Positions 919 through 13,895 of a stretch of 64,000 bases of DNA are shown here, piece by piece; the stretch's first letter is position 1, and each line of letters opens with the position of its first letter. Position numbers and translations under genes: made by a program. Origin of the DNA: Sulfurimonas crateris (lineage in GTDB: Bacteria > Campylobacterota > Campylobacteria > Campylobacterales > Sulfurimonadaceae); assembly GCF_005217605.1 (NCBI RefSeq), contig NZ_SZPX01000007.1, positions 124,001 to 188,000 of the forward strand, in the 5' to 3' direction. The notes beneath the pieces are model-generated. The model was not told the DNA's origin. It was given only the letters and a program-made list of their open reading frames with translations, and searched no databases.

Positions 919-3507
919 TTAGAGATCTTTTTGCGGCTGCTGAAAGTGGTAGCCTTGAGAGTAGTCAACACCGAGTTCTTTTACTACTTTAAAGATCTCT
1001 TCGCTCTCTACAAATTCGGCAACTGTTTTCATGCCCAGTTTTTTGGAGAAATCTACAATTGTAGATACCACAAGATAAGCATTGTTGTCTTTGTCTATAT
1101 TTTTTATAAGAGAGCCGTCAATTTTTAGGTAGTCTGCTTTTAGTTTTATAAGATACTCAAAGTTGCTGTATCCTGTTCCAAAATCGTCGATGGCTATTTT
1201 ACAGTCATACTTCTTGACCTTTGTTATAAAAGCCATTACATCTTCAAATTTTTCAATATATTCAGACTCCACTATCTCAAAAACGATTTTTGAACCAATG
1301 CCATATCTCTTTAGCATCATAATAATATATTCGGAGATTTGTGGCTCTAGTATGTCGTTAATAGAAAGATTGATAGAAAACTCGACATCTTTGTCCTTGA
1401 ACATTTCAAATGATTGTTCTATAACAGTTTTTGTAATATCAAAGTACTGTCTTGTCTGCTTTGCAATCTCAAGAAAGAAGAACGGAGCTATAACTTTATC
1501 ATCATCCCTCATTCTAACTAAACACTCATACTTCTCGTAGGCAAGAGTCGAGTTGTTTACGATAGGCTGATAGTAGGTTATGATGTTTTTATCCCTTAGG
1601 GCGTCTGAGAGTTTTTTGCTCCACTTTATGTTGTTCTCGTACTCTTTGTTCAGAGAGATACTCTCTTTATAGACAAGGTAGTTACTGTTGCTTTTTTTGG
1701 CGATCTTTAGTGCCATATTTGCAGTAGAGAGGAGTTTGTTCTTATCCTCTTCAAAAGATATTCCGCAGCTGCACGAAGTCAGTATCTGTTCATTCTCTAT
1801 CTTGATACCCTCTTTTATCTCTTTTAAGACGCCTTTGACTATCTCTTCAAACAGCTCTTTTGAGCAGGAAGACCCAAGTATTACGAACTCATCTCCTTGA
1901 AGCCGGTAAAACCTGAGAGCGGCGTCGCTAAAGATGAAGTTGTATATTTTATCCGAGAGCGCTTTTATGACCTCGTTTCCGAACTCATGACCGTAAAAGT
2001 CATTTATCTGTCTAAAGTTGTCCAGATTAAAGATAGCGATAGAGAGATTTTTAAAAGAGTGTATGTCGCTGTTTAGCTTTGTTCTGTTTCCGTAACCAGT
2101 TAAGAAGTCCATTGTAGAAGCGCTTTTTATCTCAGATATATTTGTTCTAACCCCTATATACTCTACAATATTTCCGTTCCTGTCCATAATAGGATTTATA
2201 ACGGCTTTTACCCAGTAGGATGTACCGTTTTTATTTAGATTTTGAAGCTCTCCCGACCATGGCTGTTTAAGATTTTTTATGGTGTACCACATGGACTTAA
2301 AAGCCTCTTTTGGAGTCTCAGGATGTCTTACGATATTGTGAGGCTTTCCTAAAAGCTCGCTCTCAGAGTAACCGCTGATCTTGCAAAATTCATCATTGAC
2401 GTAGGTTATTACCCCTTTTGCATCTGTCTTTGAGACGATAAAACTTCTATCAACTGCAGATTTGTACTGTTCTAAAAGCAGCAGCGAGTCGCTGTGAACC
2501 TGTTCAAGCTCATCTGTTTTAAACAGAACTGTTCTAATGGCCATAATCATTAAAATAGTCAGCGTGAAAATACTGAAGATTAGAAAGATACTAAGGGCAA
2601 GTATCTCATAAAAGGCAAAGTCAAGTTTGTTGTTGATTATCTTGTTCACTTCGTTAAATAGCTTGTCTTCTGCGGCTTTTAAAAGGTTTATCGTTTTTGT
2701 TGATTTCTCAAACCAGTAGTCGGAACTCGTGTCAAAGAGATGCTCGCTTTTACTCTTTAGTGCTTCTTCTATTATCCTAAAAGCTTCATCTACGTCATCT
2801 CCCTTGAAGGTGTCATAGTAAAATATCAGTATCTCATCTGGAGCTATAGCTTGAAAGCTCATGCTGTTTAGGTTGTATACTTCAAGATTACCGGCAAAAG
2901 AGGTGAGTGTATTTTTTAAGAACTTATGATAGATCAAAACCTCGCTTAGAGTAGCTCTCATCTGCCCAAGAGCCTCTTTTGCAGCCGATAGATGAGTATA
3001 TGCCTGTATGATATTTCTATTCTCTTTGTCATTCATCATAGATGGAATAGTTCTTGTAAAATTAAGAAGTGTTGCTATGTTTTTTGTGTAGTAGTTTTTA
3101 GCATCGGTTGTTGAGAGATTTAGCAGATAGATAGATTTTCTGTTTGTCTTAACATCGCTTATAACATCCATAATATAGTTGCTGCTGTTTTTTGTATATG
3201 AGTATGTAAATTTTGCATCATCGATGGCACTGTCTAGGTCATTCATAGCAGATATAAGTTTATCGTCGTTGCTGTTGAGATTCTCACTTGCAATAAGACC
3301 GGTCATAAGACCTCTCTCTATCTGCATAAAGTGTATAACTCTTGAGATTGCCTGTGCTTCGAGTATGCGGTATTTTGTTGTCTCAAGATTTGTTTTATCG
3401 CTTGATGCCTTGAAGAGAAGCATAAAAGAGAGAACCAGTATAAAAGATATAGTGATGATGGATAGAAGAAGCAGTTTTGCTTTTAGGTTTAGTTTCATAA
3501 TTGACAT
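919..3507 (-). CDS. NIT-sensor membrane protein with PAS, GGDEF and EAL domains (c-di-GMP signalling)
   Basis: The 862-residue protein has a TM helix at about 10-30, a periplasmic NIT (nitrate/nitrite-sensing family) domain to about 290 marked by MQIERGL and QAYTHLSAAKEALGQMRA, a second TM near 300-322, one PAS domain (about 345-455, NIVRHPETP), a GGDEF-type domain and a C-terminal EAL domain. The cyclase motif is QGDEF and no RxxD I-site precedes it, so cyclase activity is doubtful. The EAL domain keeps ECLVR, INLS, EIVESE, IDDFGTG, YLKIDGS and SQGY, so phosphodiesterase activity is likely. It is the first gene of the cheB-cheR transcript. Its sensor closely resembles that of the next upstream chemoreceptor. 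The actual ligand is unknown. Confidence 0.88.
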   Translation of the reverse strand: MSIMKLNLKAKLLLLSIITISFILVLSFMLLFKASSDKTNLETTKYRILEAQAISRVIHFMQIERGLMTGLIASENLNSNDDKLISAMNDLDSAIDDAKFTYSYTKNSSNYIMDVISDVKTNRKSIYLLNLSTTDAKNYYTKNIATLLNFTRTIPSMMNDKENRNIIQAYTHLSAAKEALGQMRATLSEVLIYHKFLKNTLTSFAGNLEVYNLNSMSFQAIAPDEILIFYYDTFKGDDVDEAFRIIEEALKSKSEHLFDTSSDYWFEKSTKTINLLKAAEDKLFNEVNKIINNKLDFAFYEILALSIFLIFSIFTLTILMIMAIRTVLFKTDELEQVHSDSLLLLEQYKSAVDRSFIVSKTDAKGVITYVNDEFCKISGYSESELLGKPHNIVRHPETPKEAFKSMWYTIKNLKQPWSGELQNLNKNGTSYWVKAVINPIMDRNGNIVEYIGVRTNISEIKSASTMDFLTGYGNRTKLNSDIHSFKNLSIAIFNLDNFRQINDFYGHEFGNEVIKALSDKIYNFIFSDAALRFYRLQGDEFVILGSSCSKELFEEIVKGVLKEIKEGIKIENEQILTSCSCGISFEEDKNKLLSTANMALKIAKKSNSNYLVYKESISLNKEYENNIKWSKKLSDALRDKNIITYYQPIVNNSTLAYEKYECLVRMRDDDKVIAPFFFLEIAKQTRQYFDITKTVIEQSFEMFKDKDVEFSINLSINDILEPQISEYIIMMLKRYGIGSKIVFEIVESEYIEKFEDVMAFITKVKKYDCKIAIDDFGTGYSNFEYLIKLKADYLKIDGSLIKNIDKDNNAYLVVSTIVDFSKKLGMKTVAEFVESEEIFKVVKELGVDYSQGYHFQQPQKDL

Positions 3508-3593
3508 AGGCTTCTTTTTTTGCTCATTTGCGCATCTTTTATTTTTTTAACATTTTAGGTAAATTTGCCAAATTTGTCAATCTAAATAAAGTT

Positions 3594-3623
3594 GTCAAAG
3601 CTCCGTAAAATAGGAGTTTTGAC
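3594..3623 (-). terminator. Probable terminator after the NIT chemoreceptor
   Basis: Inverted repeat with 11-bp arms (one mismatch): GTCAAAGCTCC, 8-nt loop, GGAGTTTTGAC, 13 bp past the receptor stop codon. On the minus strand it is followed by a T-rich but interrupted stretch, so it may be a weak terminator between the receptor and the NIT-GGDEF-EAL gene. Confidence 0.45.
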
Positions 3624-3636
3624 GGGAGTCGTTAAA

Positions 3637-5593
3637 TTACGTTCTAAACGTCTCCAACTTAGCATGAAGCTCATCTGTCATAGAGTTTAGATGCTCAGCC
3701 GCAGCTGCTATCTCTTCGACATTTCTTGCATTTTTAGATGATATCTCATTTATCTCTGAGACTTGAGATACTATAAACTCAACATCTCTTCCCGTCTTCT
3801 CAAAGTCGTTTACTGTTTTATCACTTGCTCTTACCGCATCTTTTACAATTCCTACACTCTCATTGATCTTAACTTCAACATCGGTTGCATTTTCAGATAG
3901 CTTTTGAATATCTTCAGAGTTGGAGTTCATCTGAGTGCTGACATCGACAATAGATTGAACAATGACATTTATTGTCGCATTTATCTCAGTCAAGCTTCTT
4001 TGAGTTCTCTCTGCAAGTTTTCTTACTTCATCTGCCACAACCGCAAATCCTCTTCCATGTTCACCTGCACGGGCAGCTTCTATAGCGGCATTGAGTGCAA
4101 GCAGGTTTGTCTGGTCTGCAATGTCTGAGATTATCTCTAAGATACTCTTTACCTCATTTGCATCATGAGAGAGTGTCTGCATTCTTTGTGAGAGCTCTAC
4201 TTCAAGCTGAGCTGAACTTTGAACTTTATTTGTAAGACTTACTATCTCTGTACGTGCCAGATCAAGATTGTCATTCGCTTTGATGATCTCTTTTTTACTC
4301 TCTTGTGCATCGCTTATAGCCTGAGCTATCTCATCTTTTATGCTGTTTGCTTTTTTAGTCGCTTCATCTATTACTAAAACAGACTTCTCAACATTCTCTC
4401 CAACACCCATTGCGGTAGTTGATAGCTCATGTGAGATGGAAGCGTTTTCGCTTGATGACTGTTTGGAGACGTCTATTAGGTCTTTTAGTGTAGATATGAG
4501 GTTGTTAAAACCTTTTGCCATTTGAGAGATCTCAAACGGCGCTTTTTCATCTGCTTTTATTGTCAAGTCATTGTTTTTGCTGATCTTAAGCAGTGTCTCT
4601 TTAAAGCTCTCTATCGGTCTTGAGATAGAGTTTTTTATAAAGTAAAGAGTAAACACCAAAATAAAAATTATAAGGATCGCAACCGAAGATACCTCTATAA
4701 TAATCTCATTTTTTGTGTCACCTATCTTTTTATTGTTTGAAGCAAGTACGTATTTGAAAAGTTCAAGCTCGACATCTCTAAGCAGTTCAATAGAAGCGGT
4801 AGAACTTTTAAACCACATTTTTGGATCCACCCCAAAGTTTCCATCCAGCCCTTTATGCATAGCAAGATCCATCAGTGCCATGGTATTATCTACAACCTCG
4901 CCTTGGAAGGTTCTTTCGTGAAACGTTCTTATCTCATCCGGTGCAAGTGTGGTAAACTTTCGCAGGTTGACCCTGTATGCGCCTATATTGCCACCAAAGG
5001 TAAAGTAGGTGTTTCCTGCAAACTCATCTCTTGTAAATGCACCGTTTAGGTTTGCCCTTATTTGCCCAAGCTGCTCTTTTGTTGAAGCTAAGTGAGTGTA
5101 TGCCTGAATTGTGTTTCTGTCATCCATAACATCCATATGTGATGGTATCGTGGTAGCAGTATCAATTATCGCGACAATGCTTTTTGAAAAGTAGGCTCCT
5201 ACCTCAGGACCGCTTAGAGCAAGCTCATCTATAGAGCTTCTTTTTTGGTTCAGATCGCTTATATTGTTTAAAACCGAACTGTCTCCACCCGTTTTTTTAA
5301 ACACCTCTTTAATCTCTTCAATCGCGCTGTTAACCCTCTCTCGTATAGGAGGAATCGCATCTTTTGCTTTTACCTCCGCTTGCCGCATGCCCTACGCTCA
5401 GACCCCTCTCTATCTGCATGTAGTGTATAGCTTTTGCTAAAGATTCAACCTCTAAGATCCTCTCTTGTGTCGTCTCAAGAGAGCTCTTTTGTTCAAATAC
5501 CCTGATCAATATAATCGCTGAGAGTATACAGATCGCCACTAATGGTATTGCAGTTAAAAAGAGCAATCTAGCCTTTATGCTTATTTTATTCAT
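3637..5593 (-). pseudogene. Frameshifted NIT-domain methyl-accepting chemotaxis protein
   Basis: A transmembrane chemoreceptor split by one frameshift. The front piece (5593 down to 5330) encodes a TM helix and the start of a NIT domain ending in [16 protein letters not shown]; the rest (open from 5388 to 3637) continues with [13 protein letters not shown], the NIT remainder, a second TM, HAMP and the signalling hairpin with [20 protein letters not shown]. One extra A in a four-A run (5368-5371) restores a single frame of about 651 residues when removed. The start at 5593 (MNKISIKAR) follows GGGGA at good spacing. No other stop interrupts either piece, so the lesion is recent, a sequencing error, or bypassed by slippage. 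The downstream piece could still be made from the ATG at 5388 but would lack the first TM helix. Confidence 0.8.
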
Positions 5594-5735
5594 TACTTTC
5601 CCCACCCTTTTAAATTTCAACAGATATTAACATCTTAAGTTTCGATTAAAATTGATTTATAACAATTGTTAATAATAAGCTATAAATAATTATAATATTG
5701 GCGTATAGCTGTTACCTTTTGTAAAATAAAATAAT

Positions 5736-5743
5736 GATAAAAT
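5736..5743 (+). promoter_or_regulatory. Probable luxS promoter -10
   Basis: GATAAAAT lies 31 bp before the luxS start in a very AT-rich 150-bp gap, with AGGA just ahead of the ATG as ribosome binding site. Campylobacterota sigma-70 promoters typically lack a clear -35, so only the -10 is called. Confidence 0.45.
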
Positions 5744-5774
5744 ACAGACAATTTTAAAGAGACAGGAATTTTAT

Positions 5775-6278
5775 ATGCCACTATTAGACAGTTTTACGGT
5801 TGACCACACAATTATGCCCGCACCTGCCGTACGCCGTGCAAAAGGGATGAAAACGCCAAAGGGCGATGATATAACGGTTTTTGATCTGCGTTTTGTACGT
5901 CCAAATCATGAGATACTATCATCTGAGGGGATCCACACGCTCGAACACCTTTTTGCAGGATTTATGAGAGATCATCTAAACTCAAAAGATATAGAGATCA
6001 TTGACATCTCTCCGATGGGCTGCCGCACAGGTTTTTACATGAGTGTTATCGGCACGCCTGATGAGAGCGTTGTTGCCGATGCATGGAGAGCTTCTATGGA
6101 GGATATTTTACAAGTTAAAGAGCAAAAAGATATTCCCGAACTTAATGTCTATCAGTGCGGAACATACAAGATGCACTCTCTTGGCGATGCAAAAGAGATA
6201 GCTTCAAAAGTGCTGCAGCGCGGAATCGGCATTATGGATAACGATGCGCTCTCGCTAGATCTGGCAAAAGTGGAGTAG
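5775..6278 (+). CDS. luxS: S-ribosylhomocysteine lyase LuxS
   Basis: Cleaves S-ribosylhomocysteine to homocysteine and 4,5-dihydroxy-2,3-pentanedione, the precursor of autoinducer-2, as part of the activated methyl cycle. The 167-residue length is typical. The metal site HTLEH (HxxEH, near residue 55) and the later CGTY cysteine are present, as is the catalytic cysteine in PMGCRTGFY. It is followed after 3 bp by two small genes of unknown function that probably share its transcript. No receptor or quorum-sensing gene is nearby, so the metabolic role is the safer reading. Confidence 0.97.
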
Positions 6279-8160: not shown

Positions 8161-8264
8161 GCGTTTAAAACTTCTAAAAACGCCTCTCCAAACTGCTCAA
8201 ATTTTTTCTGTGCGCAATCTCTCAAAAAGTTCCTCCTTGATTTTCTTCTCTTTTATGTTAATCT
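8157..8264 (-). pseudogene. Displaced, decayed recQ 3' end
   Basis: This 108-bp stretch copies three pieces of the intact recQ 3' end in order and orientation: 8173-8213 matches 13908-13948 at 40 of 41 bases, about 8214-8235 matches the stretch ending at 14101, and 8236-8264 matches 14126-14154 at 27 of 29. Two deletions of roughly 130 and 24 bp separate them, shifting the frame. Read on the minus strand it ends FGEAFLEVLNA and a stop that overlaps the mnmD stop. It marks where recQ ended before about 5.7 kb was inserted. Confidence 0.88.
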
Positions 8265-9359
8265 ATCCATAGTATGCAGTAGCTCTTCCATCTTACCATC
8301 TACGGCTCCAACATACTCTGTTAAATTCATCATCTCGTCCATATTTTTATTAAGCTCTTCACTATTATCGTTGATAGCCTGAATGAGAATATTGATTGTA
8401 GCGGCAGTTTCAGCCAAACTCTTTTGAGTACGTTCAGCAAGTTTTCTAACTTCATCGGCAACCACGGCAAATCCACGTCCGTGTTCACCGGCTCGTGCTG
8501 CTTCGATTGCCGCATTGAGCGCCAAGAGGTTGGTTTGATCAGCGATATCACCGATAGTGACCAAAATTTGTTTAGTTTCTTGCGCGTTACCTGCCAAAGA
8601 TTGAAGATTACATGATAGTAGATGTTCTTTATTAGCAACACTCTGAATACGCTCCACAGTGGAATTAATCATTCCGCTCAACTCCACAAACTGGTTGCTG
8701 CGAAGATTTTCAACCGTGTTTTTAAGCTGTTGAGTATTATTGTTCAATACTTCTTTTGCTTCGTTATTTTGATTTTCCATTGATTGCAATGCAACGCCCA
8801 AGTTATTAATTTTCTCAAGCATCTGAGCCATTTTACCTTCAACGTCTACTTTTGCACTGGTTGAGAATTTTCCTTCACTCAATGCTTCCAAAACGTTGAT
8901 TGCCTGATCAAGATTTTTCTCTGTCGCATCAAGCATAGCATTCATTGTTTTTCGAAGGAGATGTACATGTGGAGTTTTAGTATCACTTGCAACACGGCAC
9001 ATATAATGACCTCGACGTACTTTATCGGCAAGCAATACCATTTCACCGGCTACTTTAGTGTCTTGTTCTAAAATTGATTCATAGGTTGTAGCAAGATGAT
9101 TTAATTTTTCTTCAATACTGTTTGGTTCAACAGAAGTATTCTCTAATTGATTACGTTTAAATAGCAACAAATCTTCAAAATCATTTAACTGCTGTGTAAC
9201 CACTTCGTTACTAGAGGATGTGATGCTCACCGCAATAGCTGCACCCATTAAAACTACAATCAACCCTGCGCTCATCCAAACAGAATTAATGATAACTGTC
9301 AGTCCCAATCCAAGAACACCCAATAACGACAAAATTATTACTTTTGTACTGTTTTTCAT
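8253..9359 (-). CDS. Membrane-anchored chemoreceptor, CetA-like, possibly C-terminally truncated
   Basis: A 368-residue receptor with two adjacent N-terminal hydrophobic segments (about 5-25 and 28-47), hardly any periplasmic loop, a HAMP/linker region and the signalling hairpin tip [40 protein letters not shown] near its C-terminus. With no ligand domain of its own and a PAS protein directly upstream, it fits the C. jejuni CetA/CetB bipartite energy-taxis receptor. Only about 55 residues follow the hairpin tip, half of what the nearby NIT receptor has, and its stop codon lies in the recQ remnant, so the end may have been lost at the island junction. GAGG lies ahead of the ATG at 9359. Confidence 0.8.
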
Positions 9360-9374
9360 ATTTTATTTCCTCTT

Positions 9375-9755
9375 TTATCGCATTGTTTTATAAAGTGCTT
9401 CAGCTTTTTGAATTTCAGCAGGTGAGGGCTTGCGTCGACATGACATGTATCCCCCTTCGCTGTCACCACAGGCAATATTGGGATAAACAGTCGCAAAAAC
9501 CCAGTAAAAACCGCCATTTCTAGTTTTGTTTTTAACATATCCTTTCCAGACCTTTCCTGTTTTAATCGTGTCCCATAAATCTTTAAATGCCGCTTTTGGC
9601 ATATCAGGATGGCGAACAATGCTATGAGGTTGTCCAATCAACTCTTCAAGAGTATATCCTGCAATCTTACAAAAATCCTCATTGGCAAAAAGTATTTTTC
9701 CCTTTGAATCTGTTTGCGATACCAAAAAATCGGTATCGCTTAATGTTTGTTCCAT
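9375..9755 (-). CDS. Stand-alone PAS protein, CetB/Aer-like redox sensor
   Basis: A 126-residue cytoplasmic PAS protein. The run FANEDFCKIAGYTLEELIGQPHSIVRHPDMPK and GKVWKGYVKNKTRNGGFYWV is the Aer/CetB subtype, which binds FAD and reports electron-transport state. The C-terminal tail contains two cysteines (CGD, SCRR) of unknown use. GAGGAG precedes the ATG and the CetA-like receptor starts 15 bp downstream, so the pair probably forms a two-part energy-taxis receptor. FAD binding is inferred from the family and was not derived from the sequence. Confidence 0.8.
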   Translation of the reverse strand: MEQTLSDTDFLVSQTDSKGKILFANEDFCKIAGYTLEELIGQPHSIVRHPDMPKAAFKDLWDTIKTGKVWKGYVKNKTRNGGFYWVFATVYPNIACGDSEGGYMSCRRKPSPAEIQKAEALYKTMR

Positions 9756-9803: not shown

Positions 9804-10175
9804 TTATGCAATTCCAACAACAGCAGAAAGTTTTTCTTTAAGAACTTGCGGTGTAAATGGTTTTACGATGTAATTATTCACGCCAGCCTTTAGTGCTGTG
9901 ATTACTTCGGCTTTTCCCCCCTCGGTTGTGACCATGATAATTGGAAGATTAATGAAACGTGAATCTGCACGCACTTTTTTAACCAGTTCCAATCCGTTCA
10001 TCTCAGGCATATTCCAATCGGTAATCAGCATCTCGATATCAGGGTGTTGATCCATTATATTCCATCCTTGAAGTCCGTCTTCCCCTTCAAAAACATTTTC
10101 ATATCCTAATCGTGAGAGTGTGTTTTTAATAATACGTCGCATAGTTGAACTATCATCTACAACCAATAACTTCAA
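9804..10175 (-). CDS. cheY: CheY-like single-domain response regulator
   Basis: A 123-residue receiver domain without an output domain. The acidic pair VVDDSS, the phospho-acceptor Asp in LITDWNMPEMNG, the Thr in MVTTEGG and the Lys in IVKPF are all present, so it should be phosphorylatable and could bind the flagellar switch or act as a phosphate sink. It sits between two chemoreceptor genes, 11 bp after the CZB receptor. No cheA is in the window, so it must use a kinase encoded elsewhere. Confidence 0.88.
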   Translation of the reverse strand: MKLLVVDDSSTMRRIIKNTLSRLGYENVFEGEDGLQGWNIMDQHPDIEMLITDWNMPEMNGLELVKKVRADSRFINLPIIMVTTEGGKAEVITALKAGVNNYIVKPFTPQVLKEKLSAVVGIA

Positions 10176-10186
10176 TATAAATCTTT

Positions 10187-11308
10187 TTACTTGCTTGTTC
10201 TTTTTGCTTGCTCTTCATTTAACATTGCGTTCAATATATCAATAACTTCACGGCTTGCATGTTCAGCATCTTTGAAATAGGTCATGACATTTTTAGACTC
10301 TTGCCCACATGTACCCGCCGTTACACAATTAACAGCCAAAAGAATATTGTCGTGTACCGCTTTATGCGGGGATTCAAGTTTTTTAAAGCTCGGAGTATTG
10401 CCGAATATTTCAGCCCCTTTTCCATCCTCTGCCCATTTTCCGAGACGGCAGTTATGATGGTTCACAAATTCATTTTCAACTTTTAGACTAAATACACTTT
10501 TGTATCCATTAGCTTTAAAGAGTAAATGATCTAGTTTAACAAGCACCATAAATACAGAATACAGAACATTGGTAGAGTCATCTCCTATCACTTGTGTACG
10601 ATGACCTAAATCTATCAAGGCCATTCGGAATTGTTCTAATTTTTCAGTTGAAACAGACGAGATGGATTCCATTGTGCTTGAACGCTCATGAATTTCTACC
10701 GCATTTTGCTTTAGGCTCTGAACGCTTATCGCTACTTCAGCCGTTGCTTTTTGCGTCCTCTCAGCCAGTTTTCTTACTTCATCGGCAACAACGGCAAATC
10801 CGCGACCGTGTTCTCCCGCACGTGCCGCTTCAATCGCCGCATTCAGAGCAAGCAGATTAGTCTGATCGGAAATATCCCCGATAAGATCGATTATTTGTTC
10901 GATAGCTCCTACTCCGTCATTGAGTTGAGAGACTGAACCGTAGTTTTCAGTGATGTTAGTGACTAATGTTTGTTGAATTTGAAGAATCTTACCAATTTCA
11001 TTATTAACTTCAACGGTGCTTTGAAGATTATTTTTATTAAGTTTTTCAATCTCTTCCAAATGATTCACATTTTCGGCAAGGTCTTTTTGTAGCAAGGACA
11101 AATCAACTTGACAAGCCCCCGTTAAATTTTCAGTTAGATGATGAATTAAATCAAACATCACAGCATTATTCTTTAATTTGGAAACCTCTTGTTTCAACTG
11201 CTGATTTTCATCGTTTAAACGGTAGTTGTCATCATTTAAACTTTTAATTTCATCTCTTAACTCTGCTTCAATTTTTAAAAATTGAACCTTATTATTACCA
11301 AAAAACAT
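10187..11308 (-). CDS. Cytoplasmic chemoreceptor with C-terminal CZB zinc-binding domain
   Basis: A 373-residue soluble receptor: an N-terminal coiled coil (about 1-60, [25 protein letters not shown]), the signalling hairpin [23 protein letters not shown] in the middle and a CZB domain from about 255. CZB residues are visible: [30 protein letters not shown] and SPHKAVHDN, giving the His/Cys set that binds zinc in characterised members (for example Helicobacter TlpD, which senses oxidants). No transmembrane segment. It lies between the HD-GYP gene and cheY in the same transcript. Redox or zinc sensing is inferred from the family. Confidence 0.88.
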
Positions 11309-11328: not shown

Positions 11329-13509
11329 TTAATCAATGTATAAATCGCGAATCTTTAAAAATTTGTTCAGATTGCCTAAAAACAAATCAACCAATCTAGG
11401 GTCAAAGTGTCGACCTTTTTCTTCATGGAACAGGTAGAGAATTTTTTCAAGCTCCCACGCTTTTTTATACACACGATTACTTCCCAAGGCATCAAATACA
11501 TCTGCAATTGCAACAATTCTCCCATAAATGTGGATATCTTCACCTGATAATCCCATTGGATATCCAGTTCCGTCAAATTTTTCATGGTGTTCTTTTGCAA
11601 TAATGGCAGCGGCTTTTAAAAGCGGCCTTTGTGAGCAATTTAATATGTCAGAACCAACAGCACTATGAGAGCGCATTACCATCCATTCATCTTCGTTTAA
11701 TTTGCCAGGCTTTAGCAATACTGCATCAGGAATAGCTACTTTACCGATATCATGCATTGGAGAAGCAACAGCGACGATTTCAGCTTCTTTTTCATTCAAT
11801 CCTGCCAATAATGCTAAAAGCTTTGAATACTCAGCCACGCGCCGAACATGGTTACCCGTTTCCTTGCTTCGACTTTCCCCAATCTCTCCCATTTTGTAGA
11901 TAATTTCGCGCTGTGTATTTTCAATCTCTTCATGTAGACTAATCAAATCCGAGATATTACACATTAAGTGCAGATGCTCTATTACTTTTCCATTATTATC
12001 AACTATGGGATAAATCGTTGTATCAGTATGAAATATATTTCCTTCTTTACCTACATTGACAAAGGAAAATTTCACTATTTCTTTGTTTGCCAATTTTTTC
12101 TTGATTGCTTCACAATCACCCTCGAGGAGATGTTTTTTAGCACGCAATTCAGAACACTCCAATCCAATAACATCTTTTGGCGAGTACCCGCTAATGTCAC
12201 AAAATGTTTTATTAACATAAGTAATAATATTTTCATTAGTTGTTCTCATCACTGCCATCGTATGATTCATTGCATCTTCATACTGATGGACACGCTTTTG
12301 CATGGTTTCAAAATTATCCGTCGATATTTTCAAATCTTTATTCATCCGCTCTTTTAATACTTCAAGAGCGGTAATATCATGGCGAATCCCGATGAATTCC
12401 ACAATCTGTCCATCTATATCGATAATAGGATTAATAATTGTCTGCACCCAGTAAGCAGAACCGTCTTTTTTACGATTTTTAACCACACCTTCCCATATCT
12501 GACCATTCAAAATAGTGTTCCACATCTCTTTGAACGCTGATTTTGGCATATCTGGATGTCGTACCATATTGTGAGGCTTGCCGATGAGTTCTGCAAGCGA
12601 ATAGCCTGAAATTTCACAAAATTTGTCATTAACAAAAGTGATGACTCCTCGCTTGTCGGTTTTTGAAACTATGGAACCGCGATCAACCGTATCTTTATAC
12701 TCTTGAAGTAGTTGACGTTCGCACTCAATTTGTCTTGTTTTTCGTTTCGAATCAATCCAAAAATCGATTTTCATTAAGAGTTCTTCGGCTATAAAAGGTT
12801 TTAGAAAAAACTCACTTGCTCCTTGTTTGATTAAACGTCGGACTACATCAGCATCGTAGCTGCCAGTCATTACAATGACTGCGATATCCGCCGTATCTTT
12901 ATTTTTTTTAAGGTATTTTAAAATCTCTTCACCATTTGCATCAGGGAGCTCAAGATCTAATAAAATCAAATCATGAGAACGTTTGGAAATCTCTTCATAG
13001 GCTTGTTTTGCATCTATTGCGGTAAAAACTTGATAATTTCTTGGTTGCAGTAAAGATGTGACTTGACGACGTACGACTGAAGAATCATCAATCAAGAGGA
13101 TGTTAAAATGGACATTTTCAAATATTCCCTGAATGGTGCGGTCAATTTCATCGATAACATACCCAAATGGGTCCTTCTTTGAGAGATATCCTAATACTCC
13201 ATATCGAAACCACTCGTTACGACGCTCTTTATCGGGGTCTGAAGTATAAACAACGATTTTAAGTTTTTGTTTGGCATTCAAATTTTCAAGAAGATCTTCA
13301 CCTTCGCCATCGGGGAGATGCAAATCCAAAACTATTAAGTCATACGAATTTTTTTCAAGCTTCAGCAGCGCTTCTTCTAGGCTAAAAGCTCCCTCTGCTG
13401 TATGTCCGCTTGTAGTTAATCCTTTTTTTAATGCGTTATGGAACAGCGAAGAATCTTCAATGATTAAAATGTTTCCTGCTACTTTTAAATCAGGTTTAAT
13501 GCATGACAT
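11329..13509 (-). CDS. REC-REC-PAS-PAS-HD-GYP protein, probable c-di-GMP phosphodiesterase
   Basis: A 726-residue cytoplasmic protein. Two receiver domains (about 12-130 and 135-255) keep the acceptor Asp in VLDLHLP and LLDLELP; the second has the usual KPF lysine. Two PAS domains follow, the first of the IVSKTD...RHPDMP type also seen in the NIT-GGDEF-EAL protein and the small PAS protein. The C-terminal HD-GYP domain (about 540-720) has HDIGKVAIPD, RSHSAVG, EHHEKFDGTGYP and AIADVFDAL, the full metal and GYP motif, so it should hydrolyse c-di-GMP. It is first in the five-gene minus-strand operon, starts at ATG after AGGAT, and lies divergent from the broken XRE gene and its operators. Confidence 0.88.
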   Translation of the reverse strand: MSCIKPDLKVAGNILIIEDSSLFHNALKKGLTTSGHTAEGAFSLEEALLKLEKNSYDLIVLDLHLPDGEGEDLLENLNAKQKLKIVVYTSDPDKERRNEWFRYGVLGYLSKKDPFGYVIDEIDRTIQGIFENVHFNILLIDDSSVVRRQVTSLLQPRNYQVFTAIDAKQAYEEISKRSHDLILLDLELPDANGEEILKYLKKNKDTADIAVIVMTGSYDADVVRRLIKQGASEFFLKPFIAEELLMKIDFWIDSKRKTRQIECERQLLQEYKDTVDRGSIVSKTDKRGVITFVNDKFCEISGYSLAELIGKPHNMVRHPDMPKSAFKEMWNTILNGQIWEGVVKNRKKDGSAYWVQTIINPIIDIDGQIVEFIGIRHDITALEVLKERMNKDLKISTDNFETMQKRVHQYEDAMNHTMAVMRTTNENIITYVNKTFCDISGYSPKDVIGLECSELRAKKHLLEGDCEAIKKKLANKEIVKFSFVNVGKEGNIFHTDTTIYPIVDNNGKVIEHLHLMCNISDLISLHEEIENTQREIIYKMGEIGESRSKETGNHVRRVAEYSKLLALLAGLNEKEAEIVAVASPMHDIGKVAIPDAVLLKPGKLNEDEWMVMRSHSAVGSDILNCSQRPLLKAAAIIAKEHHEKFDGTGYPMGLSGEDIHIYGRIVAIADVFDALGSNRVYKKAWELEKILYLFHEEKGRHFDPRLVDLFLGNLNKFLKIRDLYID

Positions 13510-13561
13510 TAATAACCATCCTAAAATTAAAATTTATGAATCATATTATATATACATATCA

Positions 13562-13579
13562 AACTTGTAATAACAAGTT
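13562..13579. promoter_or_regulatory. Operator-like palindrome 1
   Basis: AACTTGT, 4 nt (AATA), ACAAGTT: perfect 7-bp arms, 53 bp upstream of the HD-GYP gene start and 56 bp before the XRE pseudogene. The same 7-4-7 layout recurs 49 bp away. Sites of this shape in a divergent gap beside an XRE gene usually bind that regulator. Confidence 0.55.
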
Positions 13580-13610
13580 GCATCAAAAATTGTATCCTAA
13601 TAAACTTTAC

Positions 13611-13628
13611 AACTTCTTATAACAAGTT
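13611..13628. promoter_or_regulatory. Operator-like palindrome 2
   Basis: AACTTCT, 4 nt (TATA), ACAAGTT: the right arm matches palindrome 1 exactly and the left arm differs at one position. It sits 7 bp before the XRE pseudogene ATG, where binding would block transcription of that gene (autorepression, inferred). Confidence 0.5.
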
Positions 13629-13634
13629 GGATTA

Positions 13635-13895
13635 ATGCAGGATATAGTTGATTTCTCGGATGATATTGTTGATAAAACATATATCGAAATTGGTAAAAAT
13701 GTTAAAAGAATTCGCATGGAAAAAGGGTTCAGCCAACTTCAACTGGCTTAATCTATCGGTCACAAATCACTTTCTATCGTTTCACTAGCAGAGATATACC
13801 ATAACAAACAACACTTCAATATTGAGCATTTAGTAAAAATCGCTTATGTACTGAACGTCAATATTTGTGATTTTTTTCCAAAGTATGAGAATTAA
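13635..13895 (+). pseudogene. XRE-family helix-turn-helix regulator broken by a nonsense codon
   Basis: From ATG at 13635 the frame reads MQDIVDFSDDIVDKTYIEIG, then KNVKRIRMEKGFSQLQLA, an in-frame TAA at 13749-13751, and continues cleanly with SIGHKSLSIVSLAEIYHN and HFNIEHLVKIAYVLNVNICDFF to a TAA at 13893-13895. Without the nonsense codon it would be an 86-residue XRE/Cro regulator with a normal helix-turn-helix (FSQLQLA then SIVSLAE). The stop overlaps the recQ stop on the other strand. Single-base mutation from TTA or TCA would explain the lesion; read-through or sequencing error cannot be excluded. Confidence 0.82.

Follow-up and report, generated by a model that had tools for sequence, protein, structure and literature searches.

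Paired putative operators accompany an interrupted HTH_3 regulator gene in Sulfurimonas crateris and recur beside varied divergent genes across Campylobacterota

We identified, in a 64-kb window of the Sulfurimonas crateris genome (the whole stretch of DNA analysed here), a small XRE-type regulator gene (xre) that is interrupted by a single stop codon and faces a divergent five-gene operon across a gap holding two matching palindromes. The putative operators, the promoter geometry, the truncation, their conservation and the co-variation of operator with recognition helix are all evident from sequence comparison. The reading that we consider somewhat probable is that xre belongs to a family of HTH_3 autoregulators of about 85 residues, similar to C-proteins and CI, which would repress the divergent gene, and that a recent stop at codon 39 would leave the operon of this strain derepressed. 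A broken xre gene is by itself an ordinary finding; the more interesting result is the wider dual-operator family, of which a literature search found no description.

Table 1. Features of the xre-operon region, in window coordinates.
Feature	Position	Strand	Description
Proximal operator (putative), site 2	13611-13628		AACTTCTTATAACAAGTT; arms AACTTCT and ACAAGTT around TATA, 6/7 arm pairs; overlies +1 and the leader of the predicted xre transcript; conserved in the six nearest relatives
Distal operator (putative), site 1	13562-13579		AACTTGTAATAACAAGTT; arms AACTTGT and ACAAGTT around AATA, perfect 7-4-7, 7/7 arm pairs; same position in 77 family loci
Inferred xre promoter	13578-13606	+	-35 TTGCAT (13578-13583), 17 bp, -10 TAAACT (13601-13606)
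Inferred leftward operon -10	13545-13550	-	TATAAT; from sequence, low confidence
xre (HTH_3)	13635-13895	+	86 codons; lone in-frame TAA at 13749-13751 (codon 39)
REC-REC-PAS-PAS-HD-GYP protein	11329-13509	-	Heads the operon, divergent to xre
Soluble chemoreceptor	10187-11308	-	C-terminal CZB zinc-binding domain (domain search)
CheY-like response regulator	9804-10175	-	Domain search
Single-PAS protein, CetB-like	9375-9755	-	Domain split as in CetB (PMC2628428)
Membrane-hairpin HAMP_2 chemoreceptor, CetA-like	8253-9359	-	PMC2628428

The gap (13510-13634, 125 nt) separates the leftward operon from the rightward xre frame. Its two palindromes, each 18 bp long, lie 49 bp apart from centre to centre and have 13 of 14 arm positions in common; when the gap was dinucleotide-shuffled 20,000 times, a pair this good arose once. 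The preliminary description of this DNA had reported two palindromes of 7-4-7 layout, with this spacing, filling the divergent gap beside an XRE gene with a single internal TAA. That TAA is the only one in the frame, and both palindromes were found inside the gap, although they leave part of it unfilled. A second such pair occurs nowhere else in the window, as judged over stretches of 125 nt. The genome search proposed there for further operator targets yielded none above chance: the exact pattern AACTTNTNATNACAAGTT has no copy in the 2.2-Mb genome beyond the two sites, and allowing up to two mismatches gave 19 matches against 17 for a reversed control.

The predicted -35 hexamer of the xre promoter overlaps the distal operator, and the two sites are centred at about -42 and about +6 relative to the inferred xre start. 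For the leftward operon, a weak prediction of low confidence places the -35 element at 13568-13573, within the distal operator, with only a 3/6 match. Together, the two assignments would put transcription starts near 13613 (+) and 13538 (-). A generic promoter scan of the window called neither promoter, and no known RNA elements were found in the window.

Family members occur in 74 of the 149 related genomes searched, with up to nine per genome, and the genome of S. crateris carries four further, intact members. A scan of genome contigs returned 109 matches; nearly all of the 80 that were kept are named as Campylobacterota, the rest being loosely named MAGs. No curated NCBIfam regulator profile came near its cut-off. 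Among 141 non-redundant loci, which are related by descent and whose counts are thus not independent, we observed 95 palindromes of 18 bp (at least 6/7 arm pairs) at the distal position, against about 13 in shuffles. These cluster 110-130 nt upstream of the conserved helix-1 anchor, which corresponds to about 55-75 nt ahead of the start codon. In the 77 loci with such a site, the downstream sequence that matched it best scored a mean of 10.5/14, compared with 8.5 in shuffled DNA, and lies mostly 46-59 bp away; in a group of 11 loci this match was assigned at 38 bp, and there the second site is preceded by a further partial repeat. In 64 of 77 loci the distal site ends in a TTG that belongs to a -35 element, and in 67 a hexamer resembling a -10 (most often TAAACT or TATACT) follows 17 bp on. 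This geometry centres the distal site near -42 and sets the proximal one over +1. AGG or GGT occurs in the right half, or in the next bases, of 42 of the 59 good proximal sites, overlapping the likely ribosome site. The window has the complete layout: a distal palindrome with the TTG edge, 17 bp, one of the two common -10 hexamers, a matching proximal site and the xre start. Where an upstream neighbour was called (83 loci), it is divergent in 74. The distance between its start and the distal centre is 30-34 nt in 24/76 loci, and in 23/77 a hexamer resembling its -10 element falls within the distal operator.

Of the six nearest relatives, L042 lies on the Sulfuricurvum kujiense plasmid pSULKU02 (intact protein WP_013449991.1), and the other five, L166-L169 and L046, come from Sulfuricurvum/Sulfurimonas MAGs and from a genus mate. 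The stretch from distal to proximal operator is strongly conserved in all six; the cargo-side DNA is not. The preliminary description was to be given up if intact homologues lacked the palindromes, and since these carry the same pair at the same 49-bp spacing, it survives the comparison. Its picture of a broken regulator beside its own operators also agrees with the lack of another exact operator copy in the genome.

With the stop written as X, the xre frame matches Pfam HTH_3 at 26.2 bits (cut-off 23). In an AlphaFold model of one homologue, L166 (pLDDT 91.6), residues 34-40 form helix 2 and residues 47-54 form the recognition helix; the top PDB matches of this model with Foldseek are C.BclI and C.AhdI (TM 0.67-0.73), which points to the C-protein fold; the closest solved sequences are SinR and CylR2 (E 4e-5 to 5e-4). 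By this model, a product of 38 residues would stop partway through helix 2, and the codon-39 stop would remove the recognition helix and the remaining domain. The frame beyond the stop is well preserved. Compared with the six relatives, the gene shows a pN of 0.08-0.13, and synonymous differences affect 77-89% of sites (near saturation), as among intact pairs, and only 3-7 residues differ in the 43 codons past the stop, fewer than in the 38 codons before it. This conservation indicates that selection maintained the frame until very recently, and the absence of decay means that the lesion is very recent, or is a sequencing error, or is tolerated via rare read-through.

Error in sequencing or assembly, or read-through, with a regulator still functional in the cell, is the alternative that we take most seriously, and we give it a real but distinctly lesser chance. 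It fits the otherwise intact frame, operators and promoter, the substitution pattern just described, and the rarity of such stops, 142 of 145 non-redundant members having no internal core stop. A second disrupted gene in the window would also fit sequence error at the xre stop: an NIT-domain-like chemoreceptor gene (3637-5620, minus strand) is divided between two frames, with its N-terminal part in an ORF at 5330-5620 and the remaining 583 aa at 3637-5388. One frameshift near 5370 would account for this, and it could reflect decay or a base error. On the other side, the assembly consists of 11 contigs and is rated 100% complete, and the other two members with a lone internal stop, L100 and L089, have independent nonsense codons, one of them in a one-contig genome, which argues that real loss occurs in this family. 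A TAA followed by T is an efficient terminator context. The stop in the window has this form, which speaks against read-through.

The three interrupted members differ in the affected codon. In L100 (G143, near 3000-3250) the stop is a TAG, the operators look partly decayed, and the gene faces a CetB/CetA-like pair, in which a CetB-like PAS gene is joined by a chemoreceptor gene; in L089 (G068, near 3000-3240) it is a TAA at a codon unlike that of the window. As the stops differ in both codon and kind, there is no conserved recoding site, and we rejected a recoded stop. Re-initiation past the window stop was likewise rejected, since no in-frame ATG, GTG or TTG codon lies downstream.

If the stop is real, both operators would be free of their cognate protein, and the operon would be expected to be derepressed; it is probably no longer repressed by the truncated xre protein. 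The switches of phages lambda (CI) and P22 (c2) have divergent, overlapping promoters, a self-activating site near -42 and further sites whose occupation blocks the other promoter. The position of the operators, together with analogy to these switches and to C-proteins, suggests that a dimer on the distal palindrome would cover the promoter of the divergent gene and repress it, that the same dimer, at about -42 of the xre promoter, might activate xre itself, and that a second dimer on the proximal palindrome, reaching from +1 to the ribosome site, would limit xre synthesis. Dimer binding, repression, activation of its own promoter and derepression in this strain would all follow from that analogy. 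The repressor role proposed in the preliminary description is favoured by position, with the distal site on the predicted -35 of the operon and the divergent -10-like hexamer inside it in some relatives; that the operon is permanently on we infer from the loss of the regulator.

The opposite arrangement, in which the regulator activates the divergent operon and its loss turns the operon off, we regard as unlikely. Small HTH_3 C-proteins act as both activators and repressors (PMC6237814), and in the AACTTGT clade 43-156 nt separate the operator from the divergent start, a greater distance than most family members show. Occlusion is nevertheless the better fit to an inferred leftward -35 inside the operator (centre about -33), and the operator holds the divergent -10 in many relatives.

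Like C.BclI, C.AhdI and C.Esp1396I, the repressor that we favour would be a small single-domain HTH_3 dimer with two sites at its own promoter, the upstream one at the -35 region, and possibly with activator-repressor logic. It differs from them in operator layout and in gene context. The C-box described for C-proteins is compact, with both dimer sites upstream of the promoter (PMC6237814), whereas the sites here are 46-59 bp apart across the family (49 bp in the window), one near -42 and the other over +1. No restriction-modification genes adjoin the window xre, and the cargo of the family varies and is divergent: relatives adjoin GGDEF, outer-membrane and other genes. The HTH_3 repressors SinR and CylR2 are also small HTH dimers; their likeness to xre amounts to a weak sequence similarity, and the C-terminal oligomerisation domain of SinR is absent from the xre family. 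The likeness to lambda CI and P22 c2 lies in the divergent overlapping promoters, the site near -42 and the blocking of the other promoter; the xre family differs in having no C-terminal domain, no phage neighbours and a single divergent cargo gene or operon. A phage origin was rejected, there being only two distant viral matches (34-35% identity).

Half-sites differ by sub-family (AACTTGT, AACTAAC, AATCTAA, AACTTTA, AATGTTC, TATTCCC and others). Across 50 non-redundant proteins, and with the remainder of the domain corrected for, no other six-residue segment follows operator distance as closely as residues 46-51 (partial Mantel r 0.32; 0/2000 permutations as high), which read LSIVSL in the clade of the window gene. 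This bears on the substitute regulator whose search had been suggested: four intact paralogues exist in the genome, but takeover of the operators by one of them, leaving xre loss without effect, is improbable, as none shares the LSIVSL recognition helix and two have clearly different palindromes of their own, a AATCTAATATATTAGATT-like pair (L049) and AACTAACCATAGTTAGTT (L050).

The operon comprises five co-directional genes running from 13509 down to 8253 with intergenic gaps of 11-48 nt. The HD-GYP protein carries both phosphodiesterase motifs (HD and HHExxDGxGYP), as HDIGK at 586 and HHEKFDGTGYP at 641. The last two genes show the domain split of the Campylobacter jejuni energy taxis pair, in which CetB is a PAS domain alone and CetA combines a membrane hairpin, HAMP and a signalling domain (PMC2628428). 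The CetB/CetA-like pair of the window differs in being co-directional with the HD-GYP, CZB chemoreceptor and CheY genes. Neighbours in the window include HD-GYP, chemoreceptor and recQ genes.

In all six nearest relatives, the divergent gene encodes a GGDEF diguanylate cyclase (two GGDEF, four PAS-GGDEF), which would be the gene normally regulated in this sub-clade; in the window, the HD-GYP, chemoreceptor and CetAB-like operon stands in its place. Because the head of the operon is unlike the enzyme type of the relatives, its ancestral regulation by xre is an assumption. The best match to the ancestral GGDEF partner elsewhere in the S. crateris genome is about 35-40%, so no close copy is left there. 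In genome G015, the HD-GYP (60%), PAS (94%) and receptor (80%) genes are adjacent and followed by a PAS-GGDEF gene, without xre and with no matching palindrome pair found at the locus. Ten neighbourhoods of HD-GYP relatives, some on short contigs, were searched for the same regulator; nine had no family member within the stretch read, and the tenth, L255, has a family xre with another operator type. The regulator module and the operon thus appear to have been joined in the lineage of the window.

L255 (G154, 2080-6150) is a second pairing of such an xre with HD-GYP/chemoreceptor genes: its ACTATAGTGGGTT-type operators lie beside a CZB chemoreceptor gene and an NIT-PAS-PAS-HD-GYP gene, and a third copy, about 200 nt away from that pair, sits just upstream of the receptor start. 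The cargo of other members (L102, L104, L050, L175) is very varied, including TM2, HSDR_N restriction-like (beside one distant relative, L104), outer-membrane beta-barrel and small lipoprotein-like proteins. Several species carry a stable sub-family (L050, at C2:29017 of the S. crateris genome, L072, L200 and L215) that combines the AACTAACCATAGTTAGTT operator with the same gene for an outer-membrane beta-barrel of about 180 aa, whose start is 31 nt away from the operator centre.

A broader reading, which we put forward tentatively, is that these loci are insulated cassettes spread across Campylobacterota, each with an XRE protein of about 85 aa, a fixed operator-promoter-operator block and swappable divergent cargo. 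Operators and recognition helices would have co-diversified into apparently orthogonal pairs, several per genome, with cargo exchange and sometimes inactivation; the window, with an HD-GYP operon where a GGDEF gene is expected, would exemplify such exchange. If this holds, a short promoter block would predict the target and the DNA specificity of more than 100 uncharacterised Campylobacterota regulators, and the family would offer a natural matched set of recognition helices and operators for specificity studies. Some of its regulators would be linked to the control of c-di-GMP and energy taxis, and the S. crateris locus would be a natural knock-out in which lost repression could be measured directly.
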